Part shown: positions 54,687 to 63,514 of the stretch, in pieces
Layout: every line of letters begins with the position of its first letter
How positions within the stretch are numbered: the first letter of the stretch is position 1
Source of the DNA: Verrucomicrobiales bacterium
GTDB taxonomy: Bacteria; Verrucomicrobiota; Verrucomicrobiia; Limisphaerales; CAIMTB01
Length of the DNA stretch: 64,000 nt
Direction: 5' to 3'
Assembly (NCBI GenBank): GCA_016795425.1
Contig: JAEUHG010000265.1
Location: forward strand, 1 to 64,000
The notes under the pieces: generated by a model
What the model was told of the DNA's origin: nothing
Databases searched by the model: none
Seen by the model: only the letters and a program-made list of their open reading frames with translations
Translations under genes and position numbers: made by a program

Positions 54687-56084
54687 ATGGAATACGCCCA
54701 TGGCCGCCGCCAATTCCTTAAATCCACCGCTCTGGCAGCGCCACTCATCGCTTCGGTGGCCCGCGAAGCCCTGGCCCAAGTGCCCGGCGATCGCCCCGTT
54801 CGACCAAAATCCGCCGAAGTGCTTAATCCCCGGGAACGCGTGCCGGTGTCGTTCATCATTGATGACTCCACCTGCTTGGTGAACCTCAACAAGTTCGCGA
54901 TGCCCCAATTTGATGCCGCGTTCGAGGGCGCCAATGCGACTTACCACCGAAACTGGCGCGAGTGGTCCGATGAGATCCCCGATGATTTCGTCCGCAAGTT
55001 CGGCTCCTGGTGCGGCGAACATGGGGTCAAAGGGAAATACAGCATCGTCCCCTATCCAGCCTGTGTCGGTCGTCTCGACCGAGAGCTGCCGGGTTGGAGC
55101 CCACGCGATCTCCAATCCAGTCTTGAACTGGTTCGCACTCTGATGACTCCCAACTGGGATATTCATCCGGAGATGGTCACTCACACCCGGGTCATTGACC
55201 TCCGAACGGGTCACCCTTTCCCTGATCGAAGTCTCAAATTCATGGAGAACTGGGAATGGACCACCGGCCGATCGACCGATGAAATCGCGGATTACCTTCG
55301 CTACGCATTGACCATCCTAAAAAACGTCGGCCTGAACTGCGAAGGCATCACGACCCCAGGCGGCTTTGGTACCCGCGCACTTCCCCAACTTGCCCAGGCC
55401 TCCCTAGTCGCCCTGCGCGACATTTTTGGCACCGAGATCCCTCATTACTTCCGGCACCTTTACGATGAAGGAACGGAAAGCGTGGCTCCGCGAGTCGAAT
55501 ACGCATCGGGTCTCGACGGCGCCGATCCCCGATGTGTGGTCAGTATCATCGCTTGCACCGGCGATTGGACCGGCGGTTGGGACAACTCCCCGCCGGAGGG
55601 CGTCGATAGGTTCATCACTGCGGACGGCAGCAGGGGGCGATTGGTCGACGTCATTCGGCGCGGAGAACCCGCCTGTTTGCTCGCCCATTGGACGGGAATT
55701 TGGTTCAATGGAGAGGAGACTGGGTTTCGCGTCTTCCAGGAGGTCGTCCACCGACTCCACCAACGCTTCGATCACCTGGAGTGGATGAAGCTTGCCGAGA
55801 TCGCGCGTTATTGGGCAGCCCGCGAACTCACCCGGATCGAAAGCACTGACAAGCCCAATGTCATGCGCCTGACGGCCCCCTTTTCGTGCCCTGGATTCAC
55901 CGTGCGTTTCGACAGACGGACCGAGGAAGCCCCCCGCCTTTTGAATTCGGCGTCGCCCCAAGGCCTGGCCCTCAGTGAGGTTGCCTCGTCGCGGTCCCTG
56001 CGCAGCGGAACCTGGAGACGTGAAGGAAACGGTGCGGTCCTTTGCTGGGACCTGGCGAAAGGGATTAACACCGTGCTGTTGTGA
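54687..56084 (+). CDS. Tat-exported polysaccharide-deacetylase-like protein (uncertain)
   Basis: 465 residues. A Tat signal (HGRRQFLKSTALAAPLIASVAREALAQ) is followed by VPVSFIIDDSTCLVNLNKFAMPQF, where FIIDDS has the TxDD-like metal motif of carbohydrate deacetylases. CGEHGVKGKYSIVPYPACVG and HPEMVTHTRVID (His ligands) continue that fold. I do not recognise a named family with certainty. Its stop overlaps the GTG of the three-domain fusion (GTGA), so the two are translationally coupled, implying a joint pathway. Confidence 0.6.
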   Translation: MEYAHGRRQFLKSTALAAPLIASVAREALAQVPGDRPVRPKSAEVLNPRERVPVSFIIDDSTCLVNLNKFAMPQFDAAFEGANATYHRNWREWSDEIPDDFVRKFGSWCGEHGVKGKYSIVPYPACVGRLDRELPGWSPRDLQSSLELVRTLMTPNWDIHPEMVTHTRVIDLRTGHPFPDRSLKFMENWEWTTGRSTDEIADYLRYALTILKNVGLNCEGITTPGGFGTRALPQLAQASLVALRDIFGTEIPHYFRHLYDEGTESVAPRVEYASGLDGADPRCVVSIIACTGDWTGGWDNSPPEGVDRFITADGSRGRLVDVIRRGEPACLLAHWTGIWFNGEETGFRVFQEVVHRLHQRFDHLEWMKLAEIARYWAARELTRIESTDKPNVMRLTAPFSCPGFTVRFDRRTEEAPRLLNSASPQGLALSEVASSRSLRSGTWRREGNGAVLCWDLAKGINTVLL

Positions 56085-59000
56085 CCGGTATTCGAACACG
56101 TGCCGGCGGTCGAGGGGCTGCGGTCCTGATCAGCTTTGCTCTTTGGCTGGCCCCCTATCTCCCAGCCTCAGCTGTTCCGTGGCCAACCGCTGCACCCGCC
56201 GATGTCGGACTCGATGCCGAGCTCCTCACTGTGTTTAGCAATCACATCGGCGGACACGGTTGTGTCGTCCGCCATGGACGGCTCGTCCACAGCTGGGGGG
56301 ATCCCATCACCCCCCGGGATGTGGCGTCGGCCTGCAAGCCCATCTTCACCCATTTCCTCCTCACCGCACTGGCTGAGGGTCTCTTGCCGTCACTCGACCA
56401 GCCCTTGGCCGATTGGGAGCCCCTCCTGCGCGACCTGAATCCCGAATTTCAATTCAAGGACCGAGGCATCCAATGGCGGCACCTGATTCAACAGACCTCC
56501 TGCTACGGACTCGCCGAAATTCCAGGAACAGCCTTCGCCTACAACGATTGGCAAATGGCCCTGTTCGTCGACACCTTGTTTGGCAAGGTGTATGGGGCGT
56601 CCTGGGCCGAAGTGGATCGTCTCGTGCTTCACCCTCGGCTCACGGAGCCTCTCGGCTGCGAGGATCACCCCACCCTGATCGGCTTCGGACCTGGCGACCG
56701 TCCCGGACGCCTGAAGATTTCGCCCCGCGACTTCGCGCGGTTTGGTCTGCTCTACCTCCGACAGGGCCAATGGGGTCAGGAACGACTCCTCGGAAGCGAT
56801 CTCGTGCGATTCGCGACGCGAACGCCCTTACCAGCCACCTTGCCTCGCGCCAGCACCAATGCCTCGTCGATGATTCCAGCGCAACGAACCCTGGGATCCA
56901 CCCGAATCCCGGACAACCAAACCGAGCATTTTGGCAGTTATAGTCATCTGTGGTGGATTAATGGACTGGATTCCAATCACCGTCGGCATTGGTCCAATGC
57001 GCCGGCCGATACCTTCGCCGCTCTCGGACACGGCGGGATTCGGGCGCTCGCGGTCATCCCCACCCTCGACCTGGTGGTCTCGTGGAACGACGCCAATGTC
57101 CGAACACCCATCGAGGAGAATCGGGCCCTGCAATTGCTTTGCGCTGCCGTTCGCGCTCGGTCGCCCGACCAGGGCACGTCCACCCCGCGGCACGAAGCGG
57201 CCCTGCATGCTGCGGTGCCAACCCCCTCATGGCCGCCGCGAGTCGCCCCGGCAAAGCGCCGAGTCATCATCGAAACCGATGCCGGCGGTGACCCGGATGA
57301 TGAGCAATCCCTGGTCCGATTCCTCCTCTATGCCAATGCGTGGGACATCTCAGGGATCATTGCCAATCGACCCCATGCCAGGAATGGAGAGAACCTGAAT
57401 CCTGCTCGAACCGGCCTCGACATCGTCCTACGGCTGCTCGAAGCCTACGAGAGTTGTTGGACCAACCTGGTAACCCACGATCCAGCCTATCCCGATGCCA
57501 AGTCGTTACGAAGCAAGGTGGTTGCAGGCTATGATGACACGAACGACGGGGTCCAACTCCTGATCGCCGCGGCCGATGACTCGGATCCGCGACCGATCTG
57601 GTATTCCGATTGGGGAAGCGACCGCGGCTCGGCCACCAACAACTTCCGTCGAGCGCTCGACCGAGTTCTGCGCACCCGAGGTCACGCAGCCTACAAGGCA
57701 TTCAAAACGAGATTCCGGCTCGTCACAGGCGACCAATTCGGCCCGCATACGTATGAAATTGCACCGGCGTTTTCGCTTTGGGTCGACACCTGGCGACCAG
57801 AAGTGGACGGCCGACGCTGGTACCATCGATTCTCCGCTCTCACCGCCCAAGCAGGGGGCTTCAATCTGGCCCGCGACGTCCTGACCGGTCACGGACCGCT
57901 CGGTGCACTCTATCCCACCAACACCACCCTTCCGCAGAAGGAAGGGGATTCCCTGAGCTTCCTGTACCTCGTACCCACGGGGATGGACGTTCCGGAAGCA
58001 CCAGGCTGGGGGGGCTGGGGTGGCCGACTTGGTCCGCGCGCCATCCCGGCCAATGGCGGAAACCGCTCATCCTCCATTCCATCGGCGCCAGATGCCCCAT
58101 CGCATCAACGCGATCGAGACGATCGCTTTACCGAACGCTACTTCTGGGCGAACCAAGCGGACCGTTGGCGCAACACCGTTCATCGAGACCACACCCTGGC
58201 CCGCTGGGCCGAGGACCTGCAGAATGACTTTCGAGCGCGACTCGACTGGTGCGTTCAACCCAGGTCCAAGGCCAATCACCATCCACAAGCCCTCGAACTC
58301 TGCCCAACCCGCGTTTCATTGGTACCCGGCGAATCACGAAGGCTCTCGACGTCTTGGGAGGACCCCGACGGTGATGCTCTCGAATTTGAGTGGATTTACT
58401 ACCCCGAAGCCGGATCCCAGCAGGGGACGCTCCAATGGTCGGCCAAAGGTCCCGACCTGACGATTTCTGCCGCGGATGGACTCGGTCCGGGGGCCTTTCA
58501 TTTCATCCTCCGGGTCATCGACCACGGATCACCGCAATTGGCGCGCTACCACCGCGTGGTGGTTGGCGTTGATCCCAGCATTGCGGATTGGTCAGAACCC
58601 CCGCCGAACCTGGCTGGGATGACCGAGGGTTATGATTCATTGCTGAGAATGAAGGGTGGAGGGTCCGTCGATAGCGCCGACCGCTGGCCGATTCGAAGAA
58701 AAGAAATCCTCGAAGATTGGAACCGGGCCCTCGGACCTTGGCCACCCGTGCTGGAACGAGCCGAGATCGAGATACTGGAAGCAAAACCGCGGGAAAACTT
58801 CACACAGATCCTGTTGCGATTTCCGATCGCTCCTCAACAAACCGCCGACGGTTACCTCCTGATACCGACGGGCGACGGTCCATTTCCGGCGGTACTGGTC
58901 GTGTTCTATGATCCCGAAACGAGTGTTGGGTTGAGGAAAGACCGTCCGAACCGAGACTTTGCACTTCAACTTTCGAGGCGCGGTTTCGTAACCCTTTCCT

Positions 59001-59629
59001 TGGGAACCCCAGGAGGCGATGCGCGAAGGCCCGATCTCGCCGGGGCGCAGTGTCAGCCCCTGGCTTACCACGCCTACGTCGCCGCCAATGCGTGGAGGGT
59101 TCTGGCCCAACGCCCCGAGGTGGATGCCAAGCGAATCGGCGTTCTTGGGCACTCCTACGGAGGCAAATGGGCTCTGTTCGCCGGCGCCTTCTGGGAACCG
59201 TTTGCCGCAATCTGCGTGAGTGATCCGGGGATTGTCTTCGATGAGAGCCGGCCCAACGTCAATTATTGGGAACCCTGGTATTTGGGATTCGATCCATCTC
59301 ACGAGCGCAAGGCCGGAGTGCCGACGCCACAGAATCCTCGAACAGGCGCCTATGCCGCGTTGATCGCCGAGGGCCGAAACCTCCATGAGGTGCAGGCACT
59401 GATCGCCCCTCGTCCTTTCTTGGTGTCCGGGGGAGCCGAAGACCCCCCAGAGCGATGGAAAGCGCTCAACCGGGTTGCCGAAGTCTACCGTTTGCTCGGG
59501 TTCCGTCAGCACCTTGGCTTCACGTCGCGCCCCGGTCACGATCCGACCGAGGCCAGCAATTCCCAGATCCTTTCCTTCTTCGACTTTCACCTCCGACCGC
59601 CACCGGTTGTTCCGCCCTTGAAAGACTGA
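56081..59629 (+). CDS. Three-enzyme fusion: class C beta-lactamase-like hydrolase + DUF1593 nucleoside-hydrolase-like + alpha/beta hydrolase
   Basis: 1182 residues, GTG start overlapping the preceding stop. Signal peptide (about 1-32). Module 1 (about 35-360) is a serine hydrolase of the beta-lactamase/DD-peptidase class C fold: S83-A-C-K86 (SxxK), Y154-N-D as the YxN equivalent, and GHGG as the KTG equivalent. Module 2 (about 393-740) begins IIETDAGGDPDDEQSLVRF, the aspartate-rich signature of the DUF1593/Sde182 nucleoside-hydrolase-like family; the Ig-like domain of the same family follows (LSTSWEDPDGDALEFEWIYYP). Module 3 (about 860-1175) is an alpha/beta hydrolase with nucleophile Ser1025 in GHSYGG, and oxyanion/His loops typical of acetylxylan or glucuronoyl esterases. 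All three are exported and probably work on one glycan substrate. A frameshift or assembly fusion cannot be excluded, but the frame is uninterrupted. Confidence 0.85.
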   Translation: MTGIRTRAGGRGAAVLISFALWLAPYLPASAVPWPTAAPADVGLDAELLTVFSNHIGGHGCVVRHGRLVHSWGDPITPRDVASACKPIFTHFLLTALAEGLLPSLDQPLADWEPLLRDLNPEFQFKDRGIQWRHLIQQTSCYGLAEIPGTAFAYNDWQMALFVDTLFGKVYGASWAEVDRLVLHPRLTEPLGCEDHPTLIGFGPGDRPGRLKISPRDFARFGLLYLRQGQWGQERLLGSDLVRFATRTPLPATLPRASTNASSMIPAQRTLGSTRIPDNQTEHFGSYSHLWWINGLDSNHRRHWSNAPADTFAALGHGGIRALAVIPTLDLVVSWNDANVRTPIEENRALQLLCAAVRARSPDQGTSTPRHEAALHAAVPTPSWPPRVAPAKRRVIIETDAGGDPDDEQSLVRFLLYANAWDISGIIANRPHARNGENLNPARTGLDIVLRLLEAYESCWTNLVTHDPAYPDAKSLRSKVVAGYDDTNDGVQLLIAAADDSDPRPIWYSDWGSDRGSATNNFRRALDRVLRTRGHAAYKAFKTRFRLVTGDQFGPHTYEIAPAFSLWVDTWRPEVDGRRWYHRFSALTAQAGGFNLARDVLTGHGPLGALYPTNTTLPQKEGDSLSFLYLVPTGMDVPEAPGWGGWGGRLGPRAIPANGGNRSSSIPSAPDAPSHQRDRDDRFTERYFWANQADRWRNTVHRDHTLARWAEDLQNDFRARLDWCVQPRSKANHHPQALELCPTRVSLVPGESRRLSTSWEDPDGDALEFEWIYYPEAGSQQGTLQWSAKGPDLTISAADGLGPGAFHFILRVIDHGSPQLARYHRVVVGVDPSIADWSEPPPNLAGMTEGYDSLLRMKGGGSVDSADRWPIRRKEILEDWNRALGPWPPVLERAEIEILEAKPRENFTQILLRFPIAPQQTADGYLLIPTGDGPFPAVLVVFYDPETSVGLRKDRPNRDFALQLSRRGFVTLSLGTPGGDARRPDLAGAQCQPLAYHAYVAANAWRVLAQRPEVDAKRIGVLGHSYGGKWALFAGAFWEPFAAICVSDPGIVFDESRPNVNYWEPWYLGFDPSHERKAGVPTPQNPRTGAYAALIAEGRNLHEVQALIAPRPFLVSGGAEDPPERWKALNRVAEVYRLLGFRQHLGFTSRPGHDPTEASNSQILSFFDFHLRPPPVVPPLKD

Positions 59630-59954
59630 ACCGCGACTCTCAGGCACCCGCCTGATTCGTCCAAAAGCAGGCTTCGACCATCGTTGCGGCGCTACCAGCC
59701 TGTCACTCAGTCATCATTTCGAAGGCAGAATCCAATGAGCCTGGCACGCAGTGCCTCGCGCCCCGTCCAATTCCAACTCGACTGGTTCCAGGTTCGTTTT
59801 CCATGGACTTCGCCATGGTGGCGCAGTCCGTTCTTCAACCATCCGATGCAGAAGACAGTCCTTGACCAGACGCCAATCCGGGACAAAACCAAGGAGGGAT
59901 TTCGCTTGCCGGATTACGGGCCAAACCGGCGAGATCCCCGGTCGGAGATTAAGC
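59630..59954. other. 325-bp region upstream of the exosortase gene
   Basis: Holds two more copies of the repeat motif (CAGCCTGTCACTCAGTC at 59696-59712 and GAGCCTGGCACGCAGTGC at 59737-59754) and then a leader with several short inverted repeats (for example ATCCGG and CCGGAT near 59877-59917). No T-rich terminator for the fusion gene was found. I looked for, and did not find, a c-di-GMP or cobalamin riboswitch core. Confidence 0.6.
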
Positions 59955-61733
59955 ATGATGACCATCCAAGCCGGGGAGGCACCCTCGCCGTCCGTCCACG
60001 CACGGGCCCACTGGCACTGGGTTACCGTCGCGATGTTGATTCTCGGTCTTTGGACCTGGGCCATCGCCGGTTGCGCCGACGAGTGGTACGACAACCCAAT
60101 GTATTCCTATGGGTGGTTCGTGCCTCCACTGATGGTCTTCTTCGCCTGGCGGCGACTTGATGAACCGTTCGCAGGCATTGTTCCTTTCGAGGCACCCAGA
60201 GTTCCCCGCTTTTCCCTGGCTCTCGCGATCGCGGCCACGGTCCTCGCCTTCCTAACGCTCCCTGTCGAACTGCTGCGCAACGAACTCCCTGATGACCGGC
60301 TGAATAACTGGGGGATAGCCATTTGTGCCGTCGTGGCCACTCTCTGGGTTGCCTACTGCGCTGGAGGTCCACGCCTCTTGCTGACCCTGGCATTCCCCAT
60401 CGCTTTCTTCCTGACGGCGGTCGCCTGGCCGAAACGATACGAAACACCCGTCACTGTCGGACTTCAGAAGATGGTGGCCGTTGTCATCGTGGAGATCATG
60501 CACATCCTGGGAATCCATGCGGAACCGCATGGAACCACGATTTATTTGCGGAATGGACCCGTCGGCATCGCCGAGGCCTGCAGTGGTATTCGATCCCTTC
60601 AAGCGAGTCTCATGATCAGCCTGGCGGTCGGAGAGCTCTTCTTTCTAAGACTCTTTAGACGTCTCGGCATCATCGTTCTGTGTGCGCTGGTCGCTACCGT
60701 GTTGAACCTGGGCAGGACGCTCGCCCTGTGCTTGATCACGGAATACCAGGGTGCGGACGCCATGCACAAGGCGCACGACCTGATCGGCGACGCCGTCCTG
60801 GTGGTGCTCCCCCTTATTGCCTGGGGCGTCGGCAAACTTCTCACCTTCGGCGACGGCTCGGTGCCCACCGCCCCGCTCCCGCGACGCGCTGCCGAGGATG
60901 GCACACCGCCCCCAACGCCCTACTGGAAGCGCCTCTGGCTGCAAGTTCGCGAATTGGAGTGGCGCCGAATGCCCAACTTCGCTCCCGCGATCGCCATCGG
61001 CCTGGCAGGAGTCGCCACCTACCACGCGTGGCTGATGGTTCTGGATCGAAGGGATCCCCCTCAGGATGCCCCCTACTTCACCGTTCGCACCGGTGAAGGC
61101 TCGAAGACCACTCAGGAAGAGATGAGTCCTGACATTTGGGCCGCCCTCTCGCCTTCCTCGGGCGGAACCTACATCCATCGCCAACCTTCCGTGCCCGGCG
61201 GTCGAATCAGTCTCTACCATTTCTTCTGGAAGCCCGCCGCCGCCAACCGCTGGGTGACTGGCCACCGACCTGACGTCTGCATGCCGGCCGGCGGCTGGAA
61301 GAAGGATGGCGAAGTCCAACCGATCGACATCAGCTTCGACGGCCAGGTTCTGCGCCTCCACGTCTTCCGTTTTGCCGGTGTCGGCCAAAGGGCACTTCAG
61401 GTCTGGGGTATCTGGCGAAATGGCGAGGCCATTCAAATGGATTTCTTCAACAATCCCACCCTTGAATGGTCACTCCTGACTGGAAAGAGCCGTTCCGCGG
61501 TCGAGGTGGTCTCGTGCGTCGTGCCCTACCTCGATGAGCAGCCGCCGCTGGACCTTGCCCAACAGATTATGACGTCGGTGTTTGAGTATCGTCGCCCACA
61601 AAAGGTGCCAACAGAAGCAGCTTCCGCACGCGCCCCGATCAAGATGGCGACGCAATCCCTCGACGCATCGAACGCCATCCTGCCGCCTAACTCGAATTCA
61701 AGCCCGTCGCCCCGCGCGCCAACGCTACCTTAG
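59955..61733 (+). CDS. Exosortase fused to EpsI-like domain
   Basis: 592 residues. The N-terminal half (about 1-300) is a multi-spanning exosortase (Xrt) membrane protease/transpeptidase with the catalytic triad Cys209 (GIAEACSGIRS), Arg254 (NLGRTL) and His274 (KAHDLIGD). The C-terminal half (about 340-560) contains the EpsI-type/DUF3485 pattern (EEMSPDIWAALSPSSGGTYIHR ... GHRPDVCMPAGGW), which accompanies exosortases in EPS-producing bacteria. The exosortase would cleave and process PEP-CTERM-type sorting signals; no such substrate protein is recognisable in the window. The ATG has GGAG eight bases upstream. ATG 59958 is an equally likely start. Confidence 0.88.
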   Translation: MMTIQAGEAPSPSVHARAHWHWVTVAMLILGLWTWAIAGCADEWYDNPMYSYGWFVPPLMVFFAWRRLDEPFAGIVPFEAPRVPRFSLALAIAATVLAFLTLPVELLRNELPDDRLNNWGIAICAVVATLWVAYCAGGPRLLLTLAFPIAFFLTAVAWPKRYETPVTVGLQKMVAVVIVEIMHILGIHAEPHGTTIYLRNGPVGIAEACSGIRSLQASLMISLAVGELFFLRLFRRLGIIVLCALVATVLNLGRTLALCLITEYQGADAMHKAHDLIGDAVLVVLPLIAWGVGKLLTFGDGSVPTAPLPRRAAEDGTPPPTPYWKRLWLQVRELEWRRMPNFAPAIAIGLAGVATYHAWLMVLDRRDPPQDAPYFTVRTGEGSKTTQEEMSPDIWAALSPSSGGTYIHRQPSVPGGRISLYHFFWKPAAANRWVTGHRPDVCMPAGGWKKDGEVQPIDISFDGQVLRLHVFRFAGVGQRALQVWGIWRNGEAIQMDFFNNPTLEWSLLTGKSRSAVEVVSCVVPYLDEQPPLDLAQQIMTSVFEYRRPQKVPTEAASARAPIKMATQSLDASNAILPPNSNSSPSPRAPTLP

Positions 61734-61753
61734 GGCGCCAACCTTGCCGGCGC

Positions 61754-63514
61754 GTGACCAATCCCGAAGAACTTCGCAAGGAATTCGAACGCTCCCATCG
61801 GCGCGTCCGATGGATTGCCATCGTCGTGCTCGTCGTCGGAGCGTCCATTGTCATCCCAACGGCTCGTCCCGCCTGGCAGACCATCAAAAACTGGCGGGCA
61901 TCGCAGTTCCTCAGGGAAGCTGAAACCCTCCTCGCCGATCAACAGGTCGCCCTCGCTTTCGAACGAGCCCGCGCGGCCATCCAACTTGTCCCCCAACGAC
62001 CGGATGCGATGCGGCTGAACGCCCGAATTCTCGCGTCCATCGGCAGTGAATCGAGCCTCCTTATTTGGAAACGACTGGTAGAGGCCGGGCAAGCATCGGT
62101 GGAGGACCTGGAAACATTTCTGGAAACCGCCCTCATCTTCGATCGCACCGACCTTGCGGAATCCCTCATCCAGCCACTGACGGCACAACCAACACCGAGC
62201 GATCGCAATTGTCGGCTGATCGCTCTTTACCAGCTTCAAACCGGAAAACCGTCCCTCGCCCTGCCCCGGGCTCGAGCCGCCTATCAACGGGCGCCTTCCA
62301 ATCCCACCAACGCGCTCCTCTTCGCCTCAATTCTCTCCACCGACCCGTCGCCGGATGCCCGCCAAGAAGCACGCCGGATCCTTTGGACCCTGGCCACCTC
62401 CGGCTCTTCCCAGGATATCGAAGCCCTCTTCCGTCTGACCCAACCTTCGCTGGGTGAACGCGCAGATCGGGAGCGGGTCGTGGAAATTCTTTCACAACGT
62501 TCCAATCGCAAGGCGGCTGAGGAAGTCCTGCTCACCGAGGCTCGAATACTCCTCAGTCCAGCCGATGCCTCCACCCTCGCCGCAGAGGCTCTCACGCGTA
62601 TGCCACGCGAGGATTGGGAACACCTAACCCTCCTCTCCGAAGCCTTTGCCCGCCTCGGACGCTACGAAGAGGTCCTGCGCCTGACCGCTTCAGGCAAGAG
62701 CTTCGTGAATCGGCGACTCTTCCTGGCCCGGTACGAGGCCCTGCTCGCACTCGGCAAACCCGACGAAGCCTACCGCCACCTTCTCCACACCGAAGCGCCG
62801 CTCCCCGCCTTCGAGCTCGAGTTGGCCAGGATCCGCGGCGCCCAGGAAGCCGGTGACATGAAGGGTCGAGACGCCCATCTCCAAAGCCTCCTCGATATCG
62901 CCGCCGACCATCCCGTCCGCATTCGAAAGGTCGCCGCTCTCGCCGAATCCAGCACGACCCCTGGCGCTACCCGCGTCGCCACGGAGGCGTGGTCGCGACT
63001 CGCCGCCCGATCGGAAGCCGGCGCCCGCGACGCTTATCGCCGACTTCAACGTCTTGCCGACAGGCAGGGCGACACCTGGACCGCCCGGGATTTCGCCAAG
63101 AAGGCGGCTCGCATCCAGACCAACGATGCCAATCTGCGGCTCGAAATCGCCCGCTACGATCTCCTGCTCGGCGACGACCTGGAGCGGGCCCTTCGCGTCG
63201 CTGAGGAAGTCGCGAAGTCCCGGACCAACGATCTTTCCGCCCGTGCGATCGCGGCCCTGGGGCAGTTGCGTCTTGGACACCCCGAGAATGCTCGCCACCT
63301 TCTCGACCGCCTGGTTCTGCCCGATGCACCGCCCGCCGATACCCTGGCTATCGTGGTTGCAACGCTGGGCTCCAATGGTTTGGAATCGCGGGCACGTGAC
63401 TTGGCCCGGCAGATTCCCATGAACAGCCTCCGCCCGGAAGAGCGTGAATTGATCCGGCCCTGGGTGGTCCCCGCCCCCCTTGGGGCCGAACTCCCACAAA
63501 GCCCTGCTCCCTAA
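61754..63514 (+). CDS. Membrane-anchored TPR protein, exosortase-associated
   Basis: 586 residues with a GTG start. One N-terminal transmembrane helix (RWIAIVVLVVGASIVIPTA, about residues 18-36) followed by helical tetratricopeptide-like repeats (FLREAETLLADQQVALAFERARAAIQLVPQRPDAMRL and many more) to the C-terminus. It lies 20 bp downstream of the exosortase gene, so it is probably co-transcribed and may scaffold the export/sorting machinery. The N-terminal 100 residues are clearly paralogous to the following gene, implying tandem duplication. Confidence 0.85.
   Translation: MTNPEELRKEFERSHRRVRWIAIVVLVVGASIVIPTARPAWQTIKNWRASQFLREAETLLADQQVALAFERARAAIQLVPQRPDAMRLNARILASIGSESSLLIWKRLVEAGQASVEDLETFLETALIFDRTDLAESLIQPLTAQPTPSDRNCRLIALYQLQTGKPSLALPRARAAYQRAPSNPTNALLFASILSTDPSPDARQEARRILWTLATSGSSQDIEALFRLTQPSLGERADRERVVEILSQRSNRKAAEEVLLTEARILLSPADASTLAAEALTRMPREDWEHLTLLSEAFARLGRYEEVLRLTASGKSFVNRRLFLARYEALLALGKPDEAYRHLLHTEAPLPAFELELARIRGAQEAGDMKGRDAHLQSLLDIAADHPVRIRKVAALAESSTTPGATRVATEAWSRLAARSEAGARDAYRRLQRLADRQGDTWTARDFAKKAARIQTNDANLRLEIARYDLLLGDDLERALRVAEEVAKSRTNDLSARAIAALGQLRLGHPENARHLLDRLVLPDAPPADTLAIVVATLGSNGLESRARDLARQIPMNSLRPEERELIRPWVVPAPLGAELPQSPAP

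Follow-up and report, generated by a model that had tools for sequence, protein, structure and literature searches.

A rare single-chain fusion of an SxxK hydrolase, an Sde182-type domain and a CE15-like hydrolase in Verrucomicrobiota

As shown in Table 1, the window (the whole 64,000-nucleotide stretch of DNA analysed here) encodes a protein in which an SxxK hydrolase (module A), an Sde182/DUF1593 domain with its Sde0182_C tail (modules B and Bc) and an alpha/beta hydrolase (module C) follow one another in that order. The preliminary description had reported an uninterrupted frame with SACK at residues 83-86 and Ser1025 within GHSYGG; the frame was indeed open over its 1182 codons and both motifs lay at these places. 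The GTG start codon overlaps the TGA stop codon (GTGA) of an upstream ORF of 465 aa (54687-56084), which is of twin-arginine type, has the look of a secreted enzyme and gave no Pfam or PDB match. Directly downstream of the fusion gene are an exosortase gene and then a TPR gene (59751-63514), an arrangement that is syntenic in SJ352 (L041). At the N-terminus of the fusion protein, a basic n-region (RTRAGGR), the hydrophobic stretch AAVLISFALWLAPYL and ASA ahead of V32 were recognised by eye, and the protein is predicted to be exported.

Table 1. Features of the fusion gene and its product, with positions in the window.
Feature	Residues	Position	Strand	Basis
Fusion ORF	1182 aa	56081-59629	+	single open frame, no interruption
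Signal peptide (putative)	1-31	56081..56173	+	judged by eye
Module A, class-C beta-lactamase-fold SxxK serine hydrolase	33-365	56177..57175	+	PF00144, AF2, Foldseek
SACK motif	Ser83-Lys86	56327..56338	+	Ser and Lys invariant in homologues
YND motif, YxN-type general base motif	Tyr154-Asp156	56540..56548	+	invariant in alignment
GHGG motif, incl. H317, KTG/HGG-type third motif	316-319	57026..57037	+	conserved
Module B, Sde182/DUF1593 nucleoside-hydrolase-like	394-649	57260..58027	+	PF07632, 8e-41
DAGGDPDDE acidic cluster, putative Ca2+/sugar site	400-408	57278..57304	+	kept in homologues
Module Bc, Sde0182_C beta-sandwich tail	685-832 (Pfam core 760-829)	58133..58576	+	PF21027, 2e-14
Module C, CE15-related alpha/beta hydrolase	833-1176	58577..59608	+	AF2, Foldseek, profile
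Nucleophile in GHSYGGKW	Ser1025	59153..59155	+	invariant
Putative acid	Asp1121	59441..59443	+	invariant
Putative catalytic histidine	His1153	59537..59539	+	invariant; aligns with CE15 histidine region of 7nn3

When the whole 1182-aa protein was searched against Pfam, only Sde182_NH-like (8e-41) and Sde0182_C (2e-14) exceeded their gathering scores, and no CBM was found. Beta-lactamase (PF00144, 1e-7) exceeded its own score only when the N-terminal part was cut out, and the C-terminal part, likewise cut out, matched GCE_fung at 1e-6, also above the gathering score. Since the catalytic motifs are kept across dozens of homologues, all three modules are under selection.

The AF2 model of module A had a pLDDT of 90.5, and its best Foldseek match was EstG (7u1c, TMq 0.70, E 5e-14). 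Its nearest solved folds were EstG, Lsa45, macrolactin acyltransferase, NylB and EstB, mainly esterases or acyltransferases. By its SxxK, YxN and HGG motifs and its fold, module A belongs to the superfamily of beta-lactamases, DD-peptidases and family VIII esterases (PF00144). The earlier label of DD-peptidase-like is only one option for module A, its fold neighbours being mainly esterases. The module is similar to the SxxK esterases EstG, EstB and Lsa45 in fold and in the Ser/Lys/Tyr-Asn and HGG motifs. However, it shares only 14-17% sequence identity with them, forms a subfamily of its own with invariant SAxKP and YND and, unlike them, is found fused to glycosidase-like modules.

Module B scored 140.8 bits against PF07632 (gathering score 26.8) and carries the acidic DPDD cluster of Sde182 domains. 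Its closest solved relative was PDB 2yhg (7e-44), which is Sde_0182 of Saccharophagus degradans, and DAGGDPDDE of module B aligned with DMGADPDDE of 2yhg. A cluster of this type was present in 20 of the 23 close B copies; the remaining three are truncated at their 5' ends. The Bc tail scored 54.2 bits (gathering score 27) and was also aligned in 2yhg. Sde_0182 and the B-Bc part are thus alike in having an NH-like domain, then a beta-sandwich tail, and the DPDDE cluster, whereas Sde_0182 has carbohydrate-binding domains in front (PMC8910321) and B of the window has an SxxK hydrolase before it and an esterase-like module behind it. According to a review, the NH domain of Sde_0182 was inactive on purine and pyrimidine nucleosides, retains Ca2+ and was proposed to be a furanose-interacting module, so Sde182-type domains such as module B may, by analogy, be non-catalytic and serve for binding only (PMC8910321). 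A search of the open literature for 'DUF1593' found no paper. Sde182/DUF1593 proteins are not known to catalyse any reaction.

For module C, the AF2 model had a pLDDT of 92.6, the best 26 Foldseek matches in the PDB were all CE15, and the profile match to PDB 7nn3 reached E 4e-17. Judged by position, Ser1025, Asp1121 and His1153 would form the Ser-His-Asp/Glu triad of CE15. GHS[Y/F]GGKW was found in 81 of 82 C copies, one copy being without the motif. In CE15, the oxyanion arginine after the nucleophile is reported to be present in 26 of the 27 characterised members and has been described as unique to them within the alpha/beta hydrolases (PMC6937553, PMC11096219). This arginine was absent from all 81 motif-bearing C copies, which have Tyr (75) or Phe (6) instead. 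A plain CE15 assignment was ruled out by this test, and module C is therefore described as CE15-like and not filed as CE15. Module C is similar to the CE15 esterases OtCE15A, Solibacter CE15 and MZ0003 in fold (TMq about 0.7), in its Ser-His-acid residues and in the lysine at Ser+4, which binds sugar in OtCE15A and is retained in the C copies, but Tyr/Phe replaces the oxyanion arginine and the identity is about 20%. In this CE15-like subfamily, the oxyanion hole must work by another route.

When 84,980 species genomes were scanned with peptide seeds, an approach that could miss distant copies, A-B-C was seen in one frame at two further loci: KLAP45 (L036, 1230 aa), from the same genus as the window genome, and WY5.bin88 (G153, L037, 1848 aa), from another family of the same taxonomic order. 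Both proteins were 54% identical to the window protein. Among the matches listed for 320 sampled genomes of the order and for 388 from the phylum, no more A-B-C chains were present, and literature searches for the same three-module fusion found nothing. The A-B-C fusion is rare. These two MAGs bear out the claim of a real but uncommon fusion of three hydrolase-type modules, with its order conserved in independent genomes, and it also holds that each domain alone is common, for A and C in Verrucomicrobiota and Planctomycetota, and for B.

It had been stated beforehand that the fusion would be refuted if its closest relatives carried the modules as separate genes. In SJ352 (L041/L155), of the same genus, the gene encodes A-B alone (837 aa) and ends about 34 bases ahead of an exosortase ORF whose identity to the exosortase of the window (59751-61733) is 68%; the same TPR gene then follows. 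These shared neighbours make the locus syntenic, so that either the window lineage acquired C or SJ352 lost it. The refuting case was thus encountered in part, as a relative with A-B and no C at the same place, but it reflects modular gain or loss of C and not an artefact, and C is a detachable module. In a third genome of the genus (L225), the exosortase was present without A-B.

In the tree of module C, the KLAP45 and WY5.bin88 modules joined a free-standing C (99%), and the C of the window stood elsewhere. A single clade of all fused C modules was rejected (AU p=0.007), but one clade of the three C modules of A-B-C chains was not (AU p=0.095), so independent capture of C in these chains is no more than likely. 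The A modules of A-B(-C) chains clustered together in the A tree (86/99), and the branching of the B tree was unresolved. The trees suggest that A and B were likely joined once and that capture or exchange of C may then have happened on more than one occasion. As the closest relatives show, the three-module chain is one outcome of extensive shuffling and not a fixed architecture.

Besides A-B in SJ352, B-C fusions were found in eight genomes and X-B in L188. Module A was joined to X in L118, L121 and L199, to Y in L120 and, outside the class, in L229, and to both (A-X-Y) in L117. The chains that combine an SxxK hydrolase with clan-A-like barrels (L117:5588-8653, L118:4209-6374, L120:4293-6338, L121:400-2436, L229:2600-4624) come from at least two classes of the phylum. 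As judged by eye, X and Y have the N-E motif and the further conserved glutamate that are usual in clan-A glycosidases, and they gave weak GH5/Cellulase matches, with little or no Pfam match in WY5.bin88; they look like clan-A glycosidase barrels. Module Z, which matched Apiosidase at 5e-10, was joined to A in L066, L092 and the distant L123 (A-Z) and in reverse in L119 (Z-A, 184-2493, apiosidase-like domain ahead of the SxxK hydrolase). L066:852-3125 and L092:7884-10157 come from Planctomycetota MAGs, and their apiosidase-like domain is of GH140 type. The WY5.bin88 protein (L037:6819-12365) reads X-A-B-Bc-C-Y, five catalytic-type modules in one frame of 1848 codons. Divergent beta-lactamase-type modules (A') were joined to B both ways (A'-B in L116, B-A' in L227) and to C in L018. 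In L135, a free-standing X gene overlapped a B gene that was likewise free-standing. In the same-genus genome G001, a Y-like gene was followed by a B-like match and then by an apiosidase gene, and Y-like and B-like genes were about 2 kb apart in the window's own genome.

We propose, with a probability of roughly 0.55, that the window encodes a multicatalytic carbohydrate-active enzyme, secreted as a single chain, that strips decorations from a glycan. Module A would remove an acyl (ester) decoration by means of Ser83/Lys86, and module C would hydrolyse another ester, one probably carried by a sugar or uronic acid, with Ser1025/Asp1121/His1153 by a CE15-like route in which the oxyanion is stabilised without the CE15 arginine. 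Module B and its beta-sandwich tail would bind, and perhaps cleave, a furanosyl side group via the acidic Ca2+-type site. Several decorations would be stripped from the same glycan by one exported chain, and once they are gone, glycosidases of the X, Y and Z type, fused or encoded elsewhere, would cut the glycan. That A and C are esterases and that the modules have a glycan substrate in common is what we infer; what was observed is one frame, three separately folding modules, intact catalytic residues and recurrent fusions.

It is chiefly the repeated joining of the same modules that speaks for a shared process. The multicatalytic glycan reading draws on these recurrent pairings together with the rejected single origin of fused C, on the B-like, Y-like and apiosidase genes lying close together in the same-genus genome, and on the CE15 fold neighbours of C and the esterase neighbours of A. 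Against it count the lack of a consistent polysaccharide-utilisation locus among the neighbours, SJ352, which manages with A-B alone at the locus, the M14 (before B) and M23 (with C) partners, whose chemistry is not obviously that of carbohydrates, and the inactivity on nucleosides of Sde_0182, the sole studied relative of B (PMC8910321). At about 20 loci, the 75 neighbouring proteins included no recurrent family that gave a clue to the substrate, and only scattered rhamnosidase, sulfatase and apiosidase genes were seen. The idea that the fused enzymes may act on successive bonds of one substrate has become likelier through recurrent, partly independent fusions that include glycosidase-like modules. 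A bolder and rather doubtful extension is that X, A, B, C and Y are a hitherto undescribed Verrucomicrobiota enzyme set for a single ester-decorated, furanose-containing glycan and that Sde182/DUF1593 is active as a novel kind of furanosidase; the set would be assembled in different combinations, with all five joined in WY5.bin88.

The alternative that survives best, although we consider it improbable, is that A and C are the sole enzymes and that B and its tail form a targeting module, which would bind furanose without catalysis and put the two enzymes onto the polymer, as proposed for Sde_0182 (PMC8910321). The similarity of B to this Ca2+-retaining protein, at 7e-44, and the place of B between catalytic modules in most fusions are consistent with it, but almost all B copies retain both motifs, the acidic cluster and EGD, which goes beyond what binding alone may need, and B genes of the same clade exist free-standing. 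Less likely is envelope or peptidoglycan remodelling, in which A would serve as a DD-peptidase or as an envelope esterase, and the target of the chain would be the cell's own envelope or exopolysaccharide. The SxxK fold is common to DD-peptidases, EstG and Lsa45 are among the best fold matches, the exosortase gene lies directly downstream and is syntenic in one relative, and M14-B-C and M23-PKD-C fusions occur; however, most partner modules in the A/B network resemble glycosidases (X, Y and the apiosidase Z), module C is nearest to plant-wall CE15 esterases, the exosortase locus of another same-genus genome is without the gene, and the other fusions are not beside an exosortase.

Slightly less likely again is a neutral fusion, by which co-transcribed genes for unrelated steps were joined and the chain would carry no information on a shared substrate. 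The free swapping of modules and the missing C at the same locus in a same-genus genome fit such an origin, but the same few modules rejoin repeatedly, a single origin of fused C was rejected, and even different beta-lactamase-type modules pair with B in both orders. An assembly or frame error joining three genes has a negligible probability: although the assembly is fragmented (301 contigs), the gene is interior to a 68-kb contig and clear of its ends, codon-position GC stays uniform through the ORF and does not shift at the module junctions, and an assembly join or frame break was ruled out by the identical one-frame order in KLAP45 and WY5.bin88.

The multicatalytic glycan reading has precedents among CE15 fusions, of which the known multicatalytic ones act on xylan (PMC8417218, PMC8280721). 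Like the window protein, CkXyn10C-GE15A and BeCE15A-Rex8A are exported single chains in which a CE15-fold esterase is joined to other carbohydrate-active modules (PMC8280721, PMC8417218). In those proteins the partners are a xylanase and CBMs or GH8, whereas in the window protein they are an SxxK hydrolase and an Sde182-type domain, and the C module is without the CE15 arginine. The recurrent gluing of the same domains suggests joint trimming of side groups from one sugar polymer. Through the fusion network, Sde182/DUF1593 is connected with an SxxK hydrolase, with a CE15-like esterase and with two or three glycosidases of clan-A-like type. This narrows the partners to a few that can be tested, and the pattern hints at a decorated glycan that bears furanosyl groups. 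Such natural multi-enzyme chains are ready-made for biomass work.

Further chains were also observed. L040:512-4198, one of the eight B-C fusions, has an M14 zinc carboxypeptidase in front of the Sde182 NH-like and CE15-like modules, an odd peptidase partner for carbohydrate-type modules. The CE15-like module C stands behind M23 peptidase and PKD domains in L114:1615-4221 and behind a heparinase II/III-like domain in L110:5871-9038, and L124:4054-6312 encodes two SxxK hydrolase domains in tandem in one chain.
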